Shown in pieces: positions 34,204-41,941 of a stretch of DNA of 64,000 bases. Position 1 is the stretch's first letter. Each line of letters begins with the position of its first letter. A program made the position numbers and the translations under genes. The notes beneath the pieces were generated by a model. The model was not told the origin of the DNA, searched no databases, and saw only the letters and a program-made list of their open reading frames with translations. This DNA is from Akkermansia massiliensis (lineage in GTDB: Bacteria; Verrucomicrobiota; Verrucomicrobiia; Verrucomicrobiales; Akkermansiaceae), in assembly GCF_023516715.1 (NCBI RefSeq), contig NZ_JAMGSI010000001.1:434001-498000 (forward strand). Direction: 5' to 3'.

Positions 34204-34719
34204 TTAGTGGTTGCCGCAGCCGCAGCCCCCGTCCTTGTGATCGTGGTCGTGGTCGCAATTGCCGTCGCAATCGCAGCTTTCCTTGTCGCAGCTGCCGCCA
34301 CAGGAGCAGGAAGTCTGGGCGCTCATGGCGCGCTGCCGGGCTTCCTCGATTTCTTCCGGAGTGGGCGCACGGCCAAGGTCGATGGACATGCCCAGATAAT
34401 GATTGATGGTGTTCAGGAGTTCATCGATGGTCTGGCGGGCTTCCAGGAAGCCGCGGGCGGCATCGTTCTTGACAACGTTTTCACGCAGGGTATCGAACTT
34501 GGAGATTTCCTCTTCCGTGGGGGGCATGCCGGCCAAGTGCTTGTTGCGCAGTTCTTCTCCGTAGGCGTTTACTTCTTCAAAAAGCTTGGTTGCCTCCGGA
34601 TTCTGGAAAAAGAGGCCGATTTTTGCCTTGGAGGCCACAACCTGGTCTTCCTTGGCAAGCAGGTTGCAAAGGGCTTCCGTGGCGGCGCGCAGGTTGTCAT
34701 TGAGAACGGGGGTATTCAT
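34204..34719 (-). CDS. YlbF/YmcA-family protein with a Cys/His-rich C-terminal tail
   Basis: A 171-residue protein. Residues 1-135 form the helical YlbF/YmcA (DUF964) domain, beginning MNTPVLNDNLRAATEALCNL and containing AKIGLFFQNPEATKLFEEVN, which in Bacillus helps control RNase Y and development. The last ~35 residues are unusual: about ten Cys in Cys-x-Cys-type pairs and several His and Asp (SCSCGGSCDKESC, CDHDHDHK, CGCGNH). This tail could bind iron-sulfur, zinc or other metals. Bacillus Y-complex proteins carry an [4Fe-4S] cluster, so a redox or metal sensor role is plausible but is inference. A strong terminator follows. Confidence 0.85.
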   Translation of the reverse strand: MNTPVLNDNLRAATEALCNLLAKEDQVVASKAKIGLFFQNPEATKLFEEVNAYGEELRNKHLAGMPPTEEEISKFDTLRENVVKNDAARGFLEARQTIDELLNTINHYLGMSIDLGRAPTPEEIEEARQRAMSAQTSCSCGGSCDKESCDCDGNCDHDHDHKDGGCGCGNH

Positions 34720-34800: not shown

Positions 34801-34819
34801 TGCGGATTACAAATCCGAA
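34801..34819 (+). repeat. Left arm of a 19-bp inverted repeat (locus 1)
   Basis: TGCGGATTACAAATCCGAA. It is the exact reverse complement of 34972-34990 and is itself a near palindrome (CGGATT-ACA-AATCCG). Confidence 0.9.
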
Positions 34820-34910
34820 GTCAATACTACTTTTTCATATCAAATGCATTTCTCCAACTCTACCCATTATTTCCCCGGATATTCTTAACAAGAAGAATAT
34901 TTGTTAGAAA

Positions 34911-34939
34911 TTGTCATATATGCTTGAATATGATGAATA
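34911..34939 (+). promoter_or_regulatory. Candidate promoter inside inverted-repeat locus 1
   Basis: TTGTCA (34911-34916) and TGAATA (34934-34939) are 17 bases apart in an AT-rich stretch, pointing at the glycosyltransferase gene at 35017. The -10 is weak. Confidence 0.35.
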
Positions 34940-34971
34940 TTCTTCTTACATTCGCATTGTTGCCTATCTAG

Positions 34972-34990
34972 TTCGGATTTGTAATCCGCA
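34972..34990 (-). repeat. Right arm of a 19-bp inverted repeat (locus 1)
   Basis: TTCGGATTTGTAATCCGCA, the exact reverse complement of 34801-34819. The 152 bases between the arms are AT-rich and hold a candidate promoter and an internal hairpin (ATATTCTT/AAGAATAT). It lies 26 bases before the next gene. Confidence 0.9.
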
Positions 34991-35016
34991 CAATCCCACT
35001 TGTTGCTACCCAACCT

Positions 35017-36519
35017 ATGACAGGGAAAAATGATTCCATGGCTATGCTGGGGTGGAAAATCCCGCTGACGCTTCTTATCTGGTCCGTTATCGTGATTGGA
35101 GCGTGTTCGGATACCTCTCCCTTGTACTCCTTTTATCCATCTCCGGACCCTTCCATTTTTTTCATGTTCGGGCGGGGGCTGCTTCACGGGCTTCTCCCCT
35201 ATGTGGAAATGGCGGACAGCAAGGGGCCCCTGCTGGTTTGGATTTATTATGCCGCCGCGTGGATTGACGGGCATTCATTTGCCGGAATATTCCTCATTCA
35301 GTGCGTAACCCTTTTTACGACGCTTCTGCTGGCTTGCGGGACGGCGCGTTTTTATCTGTCACAACGCGGCAGCCTGCTGGCTTCCATGCTGTTGTGCCTG
35401 TTTCTGTTTGATTCGTTTCCCTTCCAGCGCGGGGGAGGGGTGGAGGAATTGTGCTGGCCGGGGATGGCGGCCGTGGTTTACGGGCTGGTCCGGTATTTCC
35501 GGATGCGGGACAGGCGCAGCCTGCTGTTTCTGTTCGGCACGGCCGGGGTATTTGCCGGGGCAGCCTCCATGATGAAGTTCTCCATAGCCTTTCCCGTGTG
35601 CGCTTTAGGCGGGGTTCTGTGCCTGTGGCTGTGGTGGAACGGGCGGAGAAAAGAAGCGGCGGTGGCTTTAGGGGTGGCGCTAGCCGGCTTCCTGGCCGTG
35701 GTTGTCCCCTGTTCGGCCTGGCTGGTATCCAACGGTGTTTGGAAAGAAGCGATGAATGAGTACCTGTTGTGCTCCGTGCGTTATGGAACGGTGTCCCAGG
35801 ATACCACATGGTGGGCCAGGCTGCTCAGGCCGGCTCCGGTCCGCTGCCTGTCCGACGTACTGATGTGGGTGGCCGTCATCTGGGCTCTGGCGATAGCGGG
35901 CTGGCGTCAATTAAAAACGCAAAAGGCGCTCCTCTTTACGGCCCTGCTGTATATCTTCTTCAAGGTGGAGATGTTCAGCGTGTACAACTACTATTACAAT
36001 TCCATCCTTTCACCCATGATGATCTGGGTGACTATCTTCTTTGTGGCCCGGGCGGAACGGCGCTTTTCCCTGTGCATGCCGCGGATGGCGGCCGCAACGC
36101 TGGCAATCGCCTGCCTCACGGGGACCGGAGTGGCTGCCGGGCTGACGGGCGCCGTCCGGAAAGGAGACTTTGTCTGGAATGGCAGGGAGTTTTATTCCCC
36201 CGCCGTCCGGGAACGGCTGGCCTCTTTTTCCGAAGCCTCCGTCCTGTATCTGGGCTGGCTGGACAGGGGCTTCGGCATTACCTGGGACTGGAAGCCGTGC
36301 GGAAGATACTGGTTCCTTCAAAACTTCCCGTCGGAGGAAATGGTCAGGGAGCAGTATGATTACATTGAGCAGGGTATACCGGACATCATCCACACCAGTT
36401 CACGGGATGATGATTCTTTTCTGCGGCAGCACGGCTATAAGCCTTTGATGCCGGAGCTGGACGGGGGATTCTGGTGCCGGGTGTCACAGGGGGACGGCGA
36501 GCCTTCCCCCGAAGAATAA
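35017..36519 (+). CDS. GT-C membrane glycosyltransferase (GT39/ArnT-like)
   Basis: A 500-residue protein with roughly ten to twelve membrane segments. The motif PYVEMADSKGPLLVWIYYAA near residues 66-85 is the first-loop D-x-K-(G/P)-P-L motif of GT39-type enzymes. SMMKFSIAFPVCALG and the Trp/Tyr-rich loops fit this superfamily. The C-terminal ~120 residues form a hydrophilic periplasmic domain. GT-C enzymes move a sugar from a polyprenyl-phosphate carrier onto a lipid, protein or polysaccharide on the outer face. The upstream GtrB-like enzyme at 26162 could make the donor. Its start is 26 bases after inverted-repeat locus 1, so expression may depend on that element. The N-terminus MTGKNDSMAMLGWKIPL could start at Met8 instead. 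Confidence 0.85.
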   Translation: MTGKNDSMAMLGWKIPLTLLIWSVIVIGACSDTSPLYSFYPSPDPSIFFMFGRGLLHGLLPYVEMADSKGPLLVWIYYAAAWIDGHSFAGIFLIQCVTLFTTLLLACGTARFYLSQRGSLLASMLLCLFLFDSFPFQRGGGVEELCWPGMAAVVYGLVRYFRMRDRRSLLFLFGTAGVFAGAASMMKFSIAFPVCALGGVLCLWLWWNGRRKEAAVALGVALAGFLAVVVPCSAWLVSNGVWKEAMNEYLLCSVRYGTVSQDTTWWARLLRPAPVRCLSDVLMWVAVIWALAIAGWRQLKTQKALLFTALLYIFFKVEMFSVYNYYYNSILSPMMIWVTIFFVARAERRFSLCMPRMAAATLAIACLTGTGVAAGLTGAVRKGDFVWNGREFYSPAVRERLASFSEASVLYLGWLDRGFGITWDWKPCGRYWFLQNFPSEEMVREQYDYIEQGIPDIIHTSSRDDDSFLRQHGYKPLMPELDGGFWCRVSQGDGEPSPEE

Positions 36520-36550
36520 AAGGACCGCTCCATGAATGAGGCGGTCCCTG
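36520..36550 (-). terminator. Hairpin like the aspC terminator, duplicate copy
   Basis: GGACCGC and GCGGTCC pair around a 12-base interior that resembles the aspC terminator at 42048 (CATGAATGA shared). Read leftward it ends in TTTTATT. It appears to be the terminator that came with the aspC 3' duplicate next to it. Confidence 0.7.
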
Positions 36551-36577
36551 GAAAGTGGGAAGTAGCTGAGTCGGCGA

Positions 36578-36640
36578 TTAGTGCGCCTTGCAGAATTCTT
36601 CGAAGCGGTCCAGCGCTTCCTTCAGCACGTCCGGCTTCTT
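36578..36640 (-). pseudogene. Remnant of the aspC 3' end
   Basis: The last 17 codons, translating to DVLKEALDRFEEFCKAH, match the C-terminus of the intact aspC at 42102 (DILKEALDRFEEFCKAH), and 53 of 58 bases are identical over 36578-36635. Upstream of this point the similarity ends, so only the gene tail was kept. Together with the hairpin at 36520 it shows that the 3' end and terminator of aspC were duplicated, in the same orientation, on both sides of the autotransporter region. Confidence 0.85.
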
Positions 36641-36780
36641 TCCGTATCTTGTCTGCATTCTGGTAGAACGGGATAATTTGTCCTTCAATCCATCAGTTTT
36701 TTGAGCCGGGGAAGCTCCGGTTCTGCAAAGAACGGTCTGTCTGAATAGGCTGAATGGGGAATGACTTTTCTTCCCCTGCT

Positions 36781-36930
36781 TCAAAAGAAGTTCACATTGA
36801 GCAGCCGGATTCCAATGTTGCGAACCTTTCGGAGCTCCATAACCAGTTTGATGAGTTCTTCGTTGATTTTACGCTTAGGGCTATGGCGCGGCCGCCGGGT
36901 TTGCGCTGTAAGTCCTTCTTTCCCTTTTGC
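36781..36930 (-). pseudogene. Fragment of an IS481-like transposase
   Basis: A short leftward frame reads KGKEGLTAQTRRPRHSPKRK and then INEELIKLVMELRKVRNIGI. This matches the usual linker between the helix-turn-helix and the DDE domain of IS481-family transposases (family form: E-G-L-x-(D/T)-x-(S/T)-R-R-P-x-x-S-P, then E-L-R-x-x-x-x-x-G-x-R). The rest of the transposase is missing, so it is a relic. Family call by eye. Confidence 0.5.
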
Positions 36931-37009
36931 TTTCATTTTCATTGTTTCTTTCTGCCTCAGTGTTGAAGCGATTTCTATGAATCTCACAATCAATTATTTG
37001 TATCAAAAT

Positions 37010-37030
37010 CGGATTTCCAATCCGGAGACA
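37010..37030 (+). repeat. Left arm of a 21-bp inverted repeat (locus 2)
   Basis: Starts with CGGATTTCCAATCCG and ends with GAGACA (21 bases). It is the exact reverse complement of 37275-37295. Confidence 0.92.
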
Positions 37031-37033
37031 AGC

Positions 37034-37063
37034 TATAAATTTGAAAAAAAGCATTTAATACAA
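37034..37063 (-). promoter_or_regulatory. Candidate promoter inside inverted-repeat locus 2, pointing left
   Basis: On the minus strand TTGTAT (37058-37063) and TTTATA (37034-37039) are 18 bases apart. In the given orientation it points away from the autotransporter; inversion between the repeats would turn it toward that gene. Confidence 0.4.
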
Positions 37064-37274
37064 AATTATTTGGACCATAGACAGAAAATTTGAATGGACG
37101 GAAGACGTGCATTCGGGAAAGAAACAGATGGGAATTTTTCTATTCTTCCTGTTGCCATCAGGATTTTTCAAGGAACCAAAAAGCTTGTCGTCAAAATGTT
37201 ATAGGTTAGTTGCATTGATATTATTTCCCGTTCCAGGGATGGAGCCTTCTTTCAAGCCGTTGGCGCATGGGCCC

Positions 37275-37295
37275 TGTCTCCGGATTGGAAATCCG
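37275..37295 (-). repeat. Right arm of a 21-bp inverted repeat (locus 2)
   Basis: Starts TGTCTC and ends CGGATTGGAAATCCG, the exact reverse complement of 37010-37030. The segment between the arms is 244 bases and AT-rich. It lies 209 bases before the autotransporter start. Confidence 0.92.
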
Positions 37296-37504
37296 CTAAT
37301 TTGCATTCATTCCCTACTGGAAAACATGACATTTATATCCATGAACCATTCAGCGTCACGATTTTATCTCCTGCTAAACTTATCCTGTTTTGCTGCGCGC
37401 GCAGCTGCCGATTCCCCAGTCATAGCCTAATATAGCCTTTCAAGCGTATAACTTCTGAAAATTGCTCAAAATCGACTAATCCGTTTCCAAATCCATTCAA
37501 TACC
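37296..37504. other. Leader region of the autotransporter gene
   Basis: About 209 AT-rich bases between the right repeat arm and the start codon. A fixed promoter could lie here, but no clear hexamer pair was found. No small gene was seen. Confidence 0.4.
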
Positions 37505-40500
37505 ATGAGACTACATCTTCCTTCCTCTTTGCTCCGCTACGTGCTTGCGAGCCTGTTCATCTGCACCTTCCCGGCCGCATCCGGTGCGGACTACACGGTG
37601 AACAACACCCAGTCCGCCATGCCGGGCAGCAACCTGTACGGCACATTGGAAGAATTGAGGGCGTCCGGTTTGCTGCGTGCCAACGACACGGTTGTCCTGC
37701 ATAACGACGACTCCACGCTGACAGGAGGCCTGAATCTTCTCATTAACGTTCAGTCCGACAACACGGCGGCAGCGCGCACGCTGGATCTGGCTGGGCTGGG
37801 AACAACTCCCATGTTTTTCCTGAAGAAAGGAGACCATGGCGCTGACATGAATTCCATCATCTGGGAGAATGCGGGCAACCGGGTTCTGCGTGTGGAGGGA
37901 TTTGGCAGCAATGCCACTCTGAATCTTACCGGAGCGGTCACGTTCCGCAACAATACGGGAATCTATGATGATTCCACCGCTCCGGGCGGCGGCGCGATTG
38001 CCATTCAGGGTCAAGGTCTCGCTTCAGTCTCGCTGGATGACAATGCCGTTTTCACCGGAAATTACGCATCTTCCGCAAGCGGAGAGGTTAGAGGAGGCGC
38101 AGTTCTGGCGTTCTCCAACGACGCCCGGATCACTCTGGGCAACGGCGCCGTTTTCCATGCCAACCATGTTTTGGCGTCAGACAAAGCAGGCGGCGGGGGC
38201 GGCGCAATGTTTACCAAGGGCGGTTCCTCCTCCATTGAAATAGGTGATGACGCCACATTCACGGACAACTATGTCCAGGCTGGCAAGTCCAGCTACGGAG
38301 GAGCGATAGGCGCCGATAGAAACGCCACCTCCATTACCCTGGGAGACCGCGCGACTTTCAGCGGCAACCATATTTCCACCTCGGCAGACGGAGCAGCCAG
38401 TGAAGGGGGGGCGATCAGCACCTACATCACGATTAGAGACGCCTCCGTCACACTGGGAGACAGAGCCGTCTTCACCGGGAATTACATCTTGGCCGCCGGA
38501 ACGGGAAAAGGGGCCGGCGGGGCGGTTGCGGTGCGGGCAAATGGAGGCCCTGCATCCCTCACCGTTGGGGCGGGTGCAAGCTTCACGGGCAACTATATCT
38601 CCGCGTCATCCGGTGACGGAGGTGCCATCTGGATGTCTTCAGGGGGGGCCTGCACTCTGGGAGCCAACGTTTCCTTCACCGGAAATTACATTCAGGCGTC
38701 TTCCGGAAGTGGCGGAGCGATTTACCTGAAGAATCAGCAGCTGACCATTCGGGACGGGGCGAATTTCACGAACAATTACGCGCCCACGGCAGGGGGAGCC
38801 ATCCTGATCAACAATTTCGGCACCAACGCCGCCCAGCAATTCCTGGCGCAGACCCACGACGTTCTTTTCAGCGGCAATATGACAGGGGGAACCTTCACGC
38901 GCAACGATAACGGAACGTTTACCGTAGACGGGGGAACAGCCAACGCCATCCATGTTGAAAGGTTAGGCTCTTTGCAGTTGGCGGCCGGAGAAGGACGGAA
39001 CATCCAGTTTGACGACCCGATCACCTCAGGAACGGACTACGCAATAACGCTCGCGATCAACCGGTATACGGATGACAATGGGACTGATCACGACACCTCC
39101 GGCACGGTCGTCTTCAGCGGAACACGCTATCAGGGTACGGACGCCCATCTGGTTGCCAGCCGTTACAACAATTTCCGGGGAAAAACCACTGTATACGGAG
39201 GTACGCTGGAACTCAGGGACGGGGTCGTTTTCGGCCGCACGGGGAGCATGACGGACACGGGAACCTCCTTTACGCTTAATGCCGGAGCCACTCTTCGAAG
39301 CAAAGGCGCCGTCAGCGAGATCAATGCCGCCTCGATCGTTCTCAACGGCACGGTAGACACCGAAGGCACGCTCCTGCTGAACGGAAACGTCACAGCTTCC
39401 GACGCAATGCTCAAAACCGGACAGGGAGTCCTTGACCTGAGGAATACCGGAACCAATCTGTTCACGAACGGAGTTGCGCTCAACGAAGGCAGCATCCTGA
39501 TTAACGACATGGAACAGATTCGGACCGGCTCAGGCGCGTACATCACAGGTTCCGGCACACTGGACATCCGGTCCGCAGGCACCGTAACCCTCCCGGATTC
39601 GCTGGCCGGATTTGGCGGAACCATTGCCCTGACTGATACCCGGCTCCGTCCGGACGCCACAGGACAAACCGTGCTCGGCACCGCAACCCTGCGGCTCGGA
39701 AGCGGCTCCGAACTCTCCGTCGCGGAAAATTTTTCCATCAGCAAGCTGCATCTGGCCGGAGGAACGCTTACCGTCCAGGTGGATGGTGACGCTTCCCGGC
39801 TGGAACACCAGCTCTCCGTCTCCGGCAGTCTTGACATCACGTCGGCATCCACGCTGGCCGTCTCCGGTCTGAAAGACAGTCTGGACCACATAGCTCCCCA
39901 GCCGGGCTTCCTGGACCGCGATCTTCAGGAACTGGCTCTGGACGGCACCATCAACGCGGACGCCCTGCTGGTGGTACAAGCCGGGAACGTCGCGAATACA
40001 ACTCTTCTGGACTTGGTGGATGCCGATACGGGCGAAGCCATCACCGGCGGCGAGGAACGCGAAGTTACCTATCAGGATACCGTTACCGCGACCTACAGCT
40101 ACATTGCCGTAGCCGGCACCAATGAGCACAGCGGCCAGACGGGGATCCATCTCACCTACGGACTCAAGGAATTGAACATCCATGATGGGAAAACCTGGGT
40201 TCTGGACGCTCCGGCCGATCCGGACAGCGACCGGACGCTCATCGCCCGGATTACAGGCGGCGGCGCGCTGCAGCTGAATAGTGACGCGGCCGGCATCACC
40301 ATCACCTCCGCCACGAGCCACACGGGGGGAACCCTCATCAATTCCGGCCTGGTCACTGCCGGAGCGGACAACCTCTTCAGCGCCGGAATCCTGGAGGTCA
40401 AGGAAGGTACAACATTTGACACGGCCGCCACCGCACAAACCAACAGTAAAGGGTTTATTCTGCAAGGCTTGCTCAAGGGCGGCCAGGCATTCTCCAACAC

Positions 40501-41941
40501 GGACGCCATGTATGTCTTCACCAGCGCGCAGGTGGAATCGGCGCTTGCCAACACCGGAACGCTCCTATTGGCCAATACATCGGGCACAGGGCAGGACTTC
40601 CAGCTTTCGGGAGGCCTGAAGGGCGACGGAGGGCATGTAGCCTTTGAAGGAAGCGGCCGTGACACATTGAAGCTCGGCTCCCTCTCCGGATCGCAGGCCT
40701 TTACCATGAACATCAACCTGGCCGCCGGAACAAGCGACCGCATCGCCATCGCCGGGGAGGCTTCCGGCACGCACACGGTTCATTTCATCCTGCAAGGCGG
40801 CATTCCCTCCTCCCCGTCCTTCATACACGACATGATCACATGGGACAGTCTGGCGGAAGACAGTAATGCGGCAACGCTCTTTACCGGAACGCTTGATGCG
40901 GGTTTTTACTCCTACGGCCTTAAACTCAACGCAGCAGGCAATGGATACGACCTGTCGCCGGAGGGCTACAACAACCTGGGCGGCGTACTGCTCAATGTGC
41001 TTGGCTGCATGAGTACGGGATGGTTTGAACAGCTTGACACCCTCTCCAAACGCATGGGAGAGCTGCGCATGGGAGCGGACTTTTACAGGCAGCAGGACCA
41101 ACAGGCCAGGAACGCCGGAGAGGCGCCCAGGGGGCACTACTGGGCGCGCACGGCTTCCGGACGCACGGACACGGACCTGGGCATCGCCGGAGTATGCGGC
41201 TTTACGGAATACCAGTATGGGGCGGACAGCGGCGCGGACTGGATTGTTGCATCCGGGAGAAACAGCATGCTGGCTGCCGGTCTCTTCGGAGGATATCGCC
41301 GGAGTGACCGCCGCTTCCATGACGGCTGGGGAAGCAAGGGCAGCACGGACAGCGGTTACGGAGGCCTTTACGCCTCATGGCTGCACAGCAGGGGGTGGTT
41401 TGCGGACGCGGTTCTCAAGGGAATGAGCTACAATGCCGCATGGAGCGCGGTCCAGCCCGGGGGCACGGAACGTGGCGGCTATGACAACTGGGGATTGGGA
41501 ATGAGCATGGAAGCCGGGCGGCAGTGGAGCAGCGCCGGAGGATGGTTCCTGGAACCCTCCGTGCAAATCGCATGGCTCCATTCCGGTTCCACGCATATCG
41601 TCACGAACCAGGGCCTGGAGGTGGCGGGAAGCGCAGCCGACGTCTGGCAATTTGCCGGACGCCTGCGAGCCGGACGCACATGGAGCGTCAACGGAGGCAG
41701 GCAGCTGGTGCAGGGCTACGTGAAAACTGGTGTTACGCAGCAGGCAAGCAATGGCGGTGAAGTAAAGGCCGCCGGCAATCAGTGGCGTCCGAATACGGAT
41801 GGAACCCGCGGCATGGTTGGCTGCGGCGTAGCATGGCAGCTCAGCGCCCGCGATCAGGTGCACCTGGACTACGAATATGTCTACGGAGACAAATATGATC
41901 GTCCCTGGACGATCAATTTGGGATATACGCGGAGCTTTTAG
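37505..41941 (+). CDS. Pmp-like autotransporter (type V secretion) surface protein
   Basis: A 1478-residue outer-membrane autotransporter. A signal peptide covers residues 1-27 (LRYVLASLFICTFPAASG). The passenger, about residues 28-1170, is a right-handed beta-helix. Between residues 160 and 460 it has about nine alternating units of GGA(I/V/M) and F(T/S/H)xN, such as GGAIAIQG with FTGNYASS and GGAIGADR with FSGNHIST, the hallmark of chlamydial Pmp proteins. The C-terminal ~290 residues form the beta-barrel (starting near MGELRMGADFYRQQDQQARN), ending INLGYTRSF with the usual terminal Phe. It is probably surface exposed and involved in adhesion or shielding. The gene follows inverted-repeat locus 2, so expression may vary. 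A clear terminator follows. The flanks hold aspC and IS remnants, which suggests acquisition or rearrangement. Confidence 0.95.
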   Translation: MRLHLPSSLLRYVLASLFICTFPAASGADYTVNNTQSAMPGSNLYGTLEELRASGLLRANDTVVLHNDDSTLTGGLNLLINVQSDNTAAARTLDLAGLGTTPMFFLKKGDHGADMNSIIWENAGNRVLRVEGFGSNATLNLTGAVTFRNNTGIYDDSTAPGGGAIAIQGQGLASVSLDDNAVFTGNYASSASGEVRGGAVLAFSNDARITLGNGAVFHANHVLASDKAGGGGGAMFTKGGSSSIEIGDDATFTDNYVQAGKSSYGGAIGADRNATSITLGDRATFSGNHISTSADGAASEGGAISTYITIRDASVTLGDRAVFTGNYILAAGTGKGAGGAVAVRANGGPASLTVGAGASFTGNYISASSGDGGAIWMSSGGACTLGANVSFTGNYIQASSGSGGAIYLKNQQLTIRDGANFTNNYAPTAGGAILINNFGTNAAQQFLAQTHDVLFSGNMTGGTFTRNDNGTFTVDGGTANAIHVERLGSLQLAAGEGRNIQFDDPITSGTDYAITLAINRYTDDNGTDHDTSGTVVFSGTRYQGTDAHLVASRYNNFRGKTTVYGGTLELRDGVVFGRTGSMTDTGTSFTLNAGATLRSKGAVSEINAASIVLNGTVDTEGTLLLNGNVTASDAMLKTGQGVLDLRNTGTNLFTNGVALNEGSILINDMEQIRTGSGAYITGSGTLDIRSAGTVTLPDSLAGFGGTIALTDTRLRPDATGQTVLGTATLRLGSGSELSVAENFSISKLHLAGGTLTVQVDGDASRLEHQLSVSGSLDITSASTLAVSGLKDSLDHIAPQPGFLDRDLQELALDGTINADALLVVQAGNVANTTLLDLVDADTGEAITGGEEREVTYQDTVTATYSYIAVAGTNEHSGQTGIHLTYGLKELNIHDGKTWVLDAPADPDSDRTLIARITGGGALQLNSDAAGITITSATSHTGGTLINSGLVTAGADNLFSAGILEVKEGTTFDTAATAQTNSKGFILQGLLKGGQAFSNTDAMYVFTSAQVESALANTGTLLLANTSGTGQDFQLSGGLKGDGGHVAFEGSGRDTLKLGSLSGSQAFTMNINLAAGTSDRIAIAGEASGTHTVHFILQGGIPSSPSFIHDMITWDSLAEDSNAATLFTGTLDAGFYSYGLKLNAAGNGYDLSPEGYNNLGGVLLNVLGCMSTGWFEQLDTLSKRMGELRMGADFYRQQDQQARNAGEAPRGHYWARTASGRTDTDLGIAGVCGFTEYQYGADSGADWIVASGRNSMLAAGLFGGYRRSDRRFHDGWGSKGSTDSGYGGLYASWLHSRGWFADAVLKGMSYNAAWSAVQPGGTERGGYDNWGLGMSMEAGRQWSSAGGWFLEPSVQIAWLHSGSTHIVTNQGLEVAGSAADVWQFAGRLRAGRTWSVNGGRQLVQGYVKTGVTQQASNGGEVKAAGNQWRPNTDGTRGMVGCGVAWQLSARDQVHLDYEYVYGDKYDRPWTINLGYTRSF

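Follow-up and report, generated by a model that had tools for sequence, protein, structure and literature searches.

Invertible promoters of the CGGATT..AATCCG class in an Akkermansia genome: a predicted 7-bp crossover and a candidate family of tyrosine invertases

Two inverted palindrome pairs upstream of surface-type genes

The window, i.e., the whole 64,000-nucleotide stretch of Akkermansia massiliensis DNA analysed here, contains four exact copies of the palindrome CGGATT-NNN-AATCCG, and a search tolerating up to one mismatch recovered no further site within it (the shuffle mean for this search being 0.32). The four copies are arranged as two inverted pairs, which confirms the way in which both were described in the first-pass annotation. 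The first pair (left site 34803..34817, centre ACA; right site 34974..34988, centre TGT, the reverse complement of the left) forms a 26-nt inverted repeat, 88% complementary, and bounds a 186-bp segment (inverton 1, 34803..34988). This segment lies between a YlbF/YmcA-domain gene on the reverse strand (34204..34719; Pfam PF06133) and a forward-strand gene for a PMT_2-domain, glycosyltransferase-like membrane protein (35017..36519; Pfam PF13231), the putative switched gene, which starts 28 bp from the repeat. The second pair (left site 37010..37024, centre TCC; right site 37281..37295, centre GGA) forms a 21-nt inverted repeat, 100% complementary, and bounds 286 bp (inverton 2, 37010..37295) upstream of its own putative switched gene, a forward-strand autotransporter with a pertactin-like passenger and a beta-domain (37505..41941; Pfam PF03797 and PF03212). 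Hence, a surface-type gene lies downstream of both loci.

The first-pass annotation knew of no description of the motif in this setting, a view overtaken by the literature. According to the accessible portions of two recent papers, CGGATT..AATCCG is used as the Akkermansia inverton repeat in PMC13343947 (mBio 2026), which cites Jiang et al. 2019 and documents experimental flipping of the cps1 inverton of A. muciniphila with capsule ON and OFF states, and it was found again in 32 A. muciniphila invertons, under the designation group 138, in PMC11892184 (Microbiome 2025), which further records dynamic flipping in mice and inversion visible in metagenome reads for BAA-835. As far as these portions describe such invertons, the window loci resemble them in motif, genus and intergenic position upstream of surface genes. 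At both, inverted copies of the repeat surround a short intergenic segment, with a promoter element inside the segment and the gene start outside it. With considerable confidence, both loci can be placed in this known class as phase-variable invertible promoters, flipped by a tyrosine recombinase with a 7-bp stagger and built around a split promoter; both segments very probably flip, thereby switching the surface genes on and off. The switch class itself is already known. What is new here, at the level of sequence, is the footprint of the crossover with its matched and concertedly changing centres, the division of the promoter into separate -35 and -10 parts and the presence of recombinase genes with invertons of their own, none of which is described in the accessible portions of PMC13343947 or PMC11892184. 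A literature search found no named Akkermansia invertase and no account of overlap homogenisation.

Matched centres and the predicted crossover

Genome-wide, 65 exact sites occur in 3.28 Mb, against none for the reversed pattern that served as a control. A single site is unpaired (L056:2966), and the remainder stand in inverted pairs with reverse-complement centres; a seemingly single site in L030 has its matched partner about 1.2 kb away. Such long spacing of matched partners is seen at L030:1830-3026 and L103:1501-2663 and suggests that longer invertons exist. When up to one mismatch per site is allowed, the centres are reverse complements in all 40 real neighbour pairs, five non-matching combinations having been left out, each of which joins sites from two adjacent pairs; inverton 1 shares the architecture of these 40. 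The matching of centres, first read at the two window loci, thus extends across the genome, where the motif does not occur mostly as single copies and where none of the 40 pairs has mixed centres. In G004, the closest complete relative, 56 exact sites were counted and the centres match in 32 of 32 pairs; when this genome was checked for an orthologue of either window locus, the neighbouring genes were found to differ and the site to be absent. Among the loci from GTDB species records, which come mostly from other Akkermansia and partly overlap the other sets, 59 of 60 pairs are matched, the exception lying at a contig end of G087. Two genomes of genus g7, from another family (G030 and G085), carry 16-17 exact sites each, above the other genera of the order.

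It had initially been proposed that the central bases decide which arms pair. That they do so uniquely did not survive inspection of their usage: 41 invertons employ 22 of the 32 centre classes, as compared with 23.1 ± 1.8 expected from random draws, and the ACA/TGT centre of locus 1 is found again at L033 and L059. The same centre may thus serve at more than one locus, and the idea that it provides a unique address was rejected. More plausibly, strand exchange inside a single inverton both requires a matched centre and produces one.

A base-by-base comparison of partner sites helps to delimit the positions involved. It covered 103 candidate pairs, of which three proved to be false pairings between units, leaving about 100. 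In the outer arm positions (1-4 and 12-15 of the 15-mer) partners differ about 60 times across these pairs, i.e., 24, 1, 25 and 10 times at arm positions 1-4 when folded by symmetry, whereas positions 5-11, the variable centre included, show no partner difference once the three false pairings are dropped. Nine deviations from the motif do occur within this zone, at positions 6, 10 and 11 (e.g., CGGATTACCAGTCCG, CGGATCAATAATCCG and CGGATAGGCTATCCG), and they are always present in both partners. Such a constantly matched stretch of 7 bp, bordered by arms in which partners do diverge, corresponds to the footprint expected of a tyrosine recombinase whose overlap measures 7 bp. Applied to the window, the position table predicts crossovers TTACAAA at 34807-34813 in the left site of inverton 1 and TTTCCAA at 37014-37020 in that of inverton 2. 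The overlap of the lambda system is likewise 7 bp.

The proposed course of events is that a tyrosine recombinase, from a family with several members per genome, would bind the short palindromic arms of two inverted sites and make staggered cuts, 7 bp apart, across positions 5-11 (TTNNNAA), after which the segment would flip. Strand exchange yields products in which the two overlaps form a heteroduplex. With inverted sites, one chromosome strand would come to carry overlap X at both sites and the other strand overlap Y at both, and replication would then give each daughter a matched pair. Matched crossovers might hence be explained by strand exchange between inverted sites followed by replication, which would place the same overlap at both ends, and additionally by the poor recombination of mismatched overlaps, tyrosine recombinases needing overlap identity. 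This second factor could be taken further, such that selection for recombination would by itself hold the centres matched, with no homogenisation by strand exchange, as a mismatch would lock a pair in place, and selection might then remove it. We regard this narrower account as rather unlikely: pairs with mutated arms, which are perhaps locked, are never mismatched in the centre, where about 50 mismatches would be expected in the sample had it decayed as the arms have, and orthologues show concerted changes.

The latter are seen in a comparison of G000 with G004, where nine of the 12 orthologous invertons with both flanks aligned have changed centres, all of them matched within each species. 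Hypervariability of the centre was considered and rejected, as nine changes in 12 were judged to be about what neutral divergence would give; only the concert of the change, and not its rate, appears to be the notable point. In the same 12 orthologues one inner segment is inverted (L058 versus L112) and several have kept their orientation. Concerted crossover matching also provides a general route to the strand-exchange positions of uncharacterised invertases from genomes alone.

G087, a distant Akkermansia species, presents a special case. It has more than 80 exact sites (L155, L264-L292), almost all of which have CAA as their centre; the units measure about 195 bp and occur in both inner orientations. 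Two of its copies have flanks identical at 38 of 38 and 193 of 200 positions, and their inner 165 bp are inverted, matching at 164 of 165. The expansion is a clonal MITE-like burst of a single inverton, and the more than 80 copies of the unit indicate that units can multiply. This, along with the size classes with shared ends formed by the inner segments, could be used to argue that all the units are MITE-like mobile elements, their ends palindromic by chance and their inversion incidental. Such an interpretation is quite improbable. The burst in G087 holds one centre, as opposed to the main group, in which centres vary among loci and, at fixed orthologous positions, have changed jointly in both partners; conservation of orthologous positions across species is itself partly seen. 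Further, the invertons adjacent to recombinase genes (see below) have other arms and the same design. No target-site duplications were seen by eye beside the units.

A split promoter and the comparison with dispersed repeats

The inner ends of the invertons are polar. In 57 of 76 invertons, the outward-reading pentamer TTGAC is found no more than 12 nt from one repeat and is missing near the other; in none of the 76 does it occur at both ends. Outside the repeats, TA occupies outer positions 2-3 in 45 of 95 gene-facing flanks as compared with 10 of 57 other flanks (p = 2e-4), although it is missing there in about half of the gene-facing flanks. This pattern points to a promoter with its -35 element inside the segment at one end and its -10 element fixed beyond the repeat, towards the gene; the 15-bp site separates the two within a spacer of about 17 nt. 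With the -35 inside and the -10 outside, inversion would make or break the promoter, the outward-reading -35 being joined to, or parted from, the fixed -10. The arrangement supplies a simple rule by which ON and OFF states could be read from genome sequence.

In inverton 1, the hexamer TTGACT at the left inner end (34819..34824, reverse strand), recognised from the sequence and the TTGAC pattern of the family, reads outward to the left in the assembly. A candidate fixed -10, CACAAT (34989..34994, forward strand), lies outside the right repeat ahead of the gene at 35017, and inversion would give TTGACT-N16-CACAAT before the PMT_2 gene; this -10 is a weak match and its 16-nt spacer is assumed. 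In inverton 2, a -35-like TTGTCT occupies the left inner end (37026..37031, reverse strand), as judged on the same grounds, and the candidate fixed -10, TAATTT (37297..37302, forward strand), stands outside the right repeat, facing the autotransporter. Inversion would bring the former to 17 nt before the latter, giving TTGTCT-N17-TAATTT. From this promoter layout both window loci are predicted to be OFF in the assembly.

More elaborate arrangements occur elsewhere. Two invertons with centres AGG and ATA are about 220 bp apart at L031:2775-3367; at other places several are situated between divergently oriented genes, where each might toggle a pair of genes. At L050:3186-3213, L115 and L205:2502-2559, one recombination site is partly duplicated in tandem with its centre unchanged.

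The polarity of the promoter parts bears on the origin of the repeats. The first-pass annotation had named a RAYT/REP family as the main competing view, i.e., that the RAYT (Y1 transposase) encoded in the genome has spread REP/BIME-type repeats (REPINs), with the pairs representing inverted REPs. Dispersed intergenic palindromes in inverted pairs do resemble REPINs, the genome contains one Y1_Tnp gene, located about 1.5 kb from the pair in L040, and similar 15-mers occur in Segatella copri as hairpin repeats in other arrangements. However, the locus-specific matched centres, the 7-bp zone free of differences and the polar -35 boxes are at odds with it, as is the flipping published in PMC13343947, so far as its accessible portion goes. 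Additionally, tyrosine recombinase genes carry the same inverton unit as their own upstream region. The flanks show the -10-like TA in place of an invariant GTAG tag, and the lone Y1_Tnp gene is not flanked by the motif. Accordingly, an origin by RAYT activity was rejected and is scarcely credible as an explanation of the pairs. The single Y1_Tnp (RAYT-like) gene of the genome, at L016:859-1869 on the reverse strand, is probably unrelated to the invertons. In Segatella copri (L342, L370, L373, L390 and L392) the identical 15-mer stands in hairpin-like repeats, some copies being direct and 49 bp apart; as it occurs there in other arrangements, the motif alone is not diagnostic.

A tyrosine recombinase family with invertons of its own

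A search of the genome for a serine recombinase gave no PF00239 match, and the matched zone of 7 bp differs from the 2-bp crossover of serine invertases of the Mpi/Hin type. With no serine recombinase detected in the genome, an enzyme of this type was rejected. The genome has 13 tyrosine recombinases, four of which (L025, L026, L028 and L029, all with Pfam PF00589 matches) belong to one family, here family A. The initial suggestion of a single recombinase or a single repeat family is retained as regards one repeat family, which is tied to one tyrosine recombinase family with several members per genome. Throughout the genus, genomes carry several family A genes, even where the dispersed motif is nearly lacking. 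The catalytic R, K, R and Y are invariant in 38 members and the H nearly so, and the box II histidine is replaced by aspartate in the aligned members. A PDB sequence search with L028 gave no match; its predicted fold (pLDDT 89) matches XerA and the integrases of lambda and Tn1549. Family A thus resembles the latter two in predicted fold and catalytic residues, and departs from them in its sequence identity of about 15-18% and in the box II aspartate of its aligned members. No obvious mobile element was seen around the family A genes.

Family A is linked to the switches through its gene neighborhoods. An inverton lies directly upstream of the gene in 19 of 45 family A members, as opposed to none of 46 other tyrosine recombinases (p = 1e-7). 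These invertons measure about 160-210 bp and their repeats consist of short palindromes around a matched centre of variable sequence, with arms that vary by subfamily (e.g., CGGAT, ACAGGAT, ATGAT, GCAT and CGAAT); L028 in the window genome has CGGAT-AGGCT-ATCCG upstream. On account of this association, family A is likely the invertase family of the Akkermansia invertons. The 2025 survey (PMC11892184), in its accessible portion, reports that an inverton cannot, in general, regulate the invertase encoded near it.

As to which member acts on the dispersed sites, the sequences suggest that L025, L028 or both could do so. In five genomes L025 is flanked by speA on one side and a beta-galactosidase-like gene on the other, and its conservation is 93-95%. 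Apart from Xer, no other tyrosine recombinase is shared by all five of the close site-rich genomes that were compared; L025 has no upstream inverton. Its orthologue is absent from G087 despite the more than 80 sites there, nearly all of one centre, and its correlation with site number follows phylogeny. L025 as the sole invertase is no more than a possibility, given the missing upstream inverton and its absence from G087. L028 has an upstream inverton, but its orthologue is broken in G040.

The Akkermansia invertons may be compared to other promoter switches. The invertible promoters of Bacteroides (Mpi or Tsr-type) are likewise numerous and dispersed, share a common repeat and switch surface structures; Mpi belongs to the serine recombinases, and the promoter is contained entirely within the segment. 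Unlike these, the Akkermansia genome has no detected serine recombinase and only the -35 appears to flip. The fimS/FimB-FimE and HbiF systems similarly combine a tyrosine recombinase and short inverted repeats with promoter switching. These and similar enterobacterial switches are single-locus, with the full promoter inside, whereas in Akkermansia about 40 loci form one family and the recombinase family would itself be controlled by its own invertons.

Taken further, these observations slightly favor a wider scheme, in which a diversifying family of tyrosine invertases in Akkermansia, many of them phase-variable via their own inverton, shifts its arm specificity by subfamily, its inversions driving the concerted 7-bp crossovers and the whole forming a hierarchical switch network. 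The sequences point to an enzyme family that can be tested, with switches of its own and a predicted 7-bp crossover. G071 and G129 each have one exact CGGATT site in all, and in both genomes it lies upstream of a family A gene.
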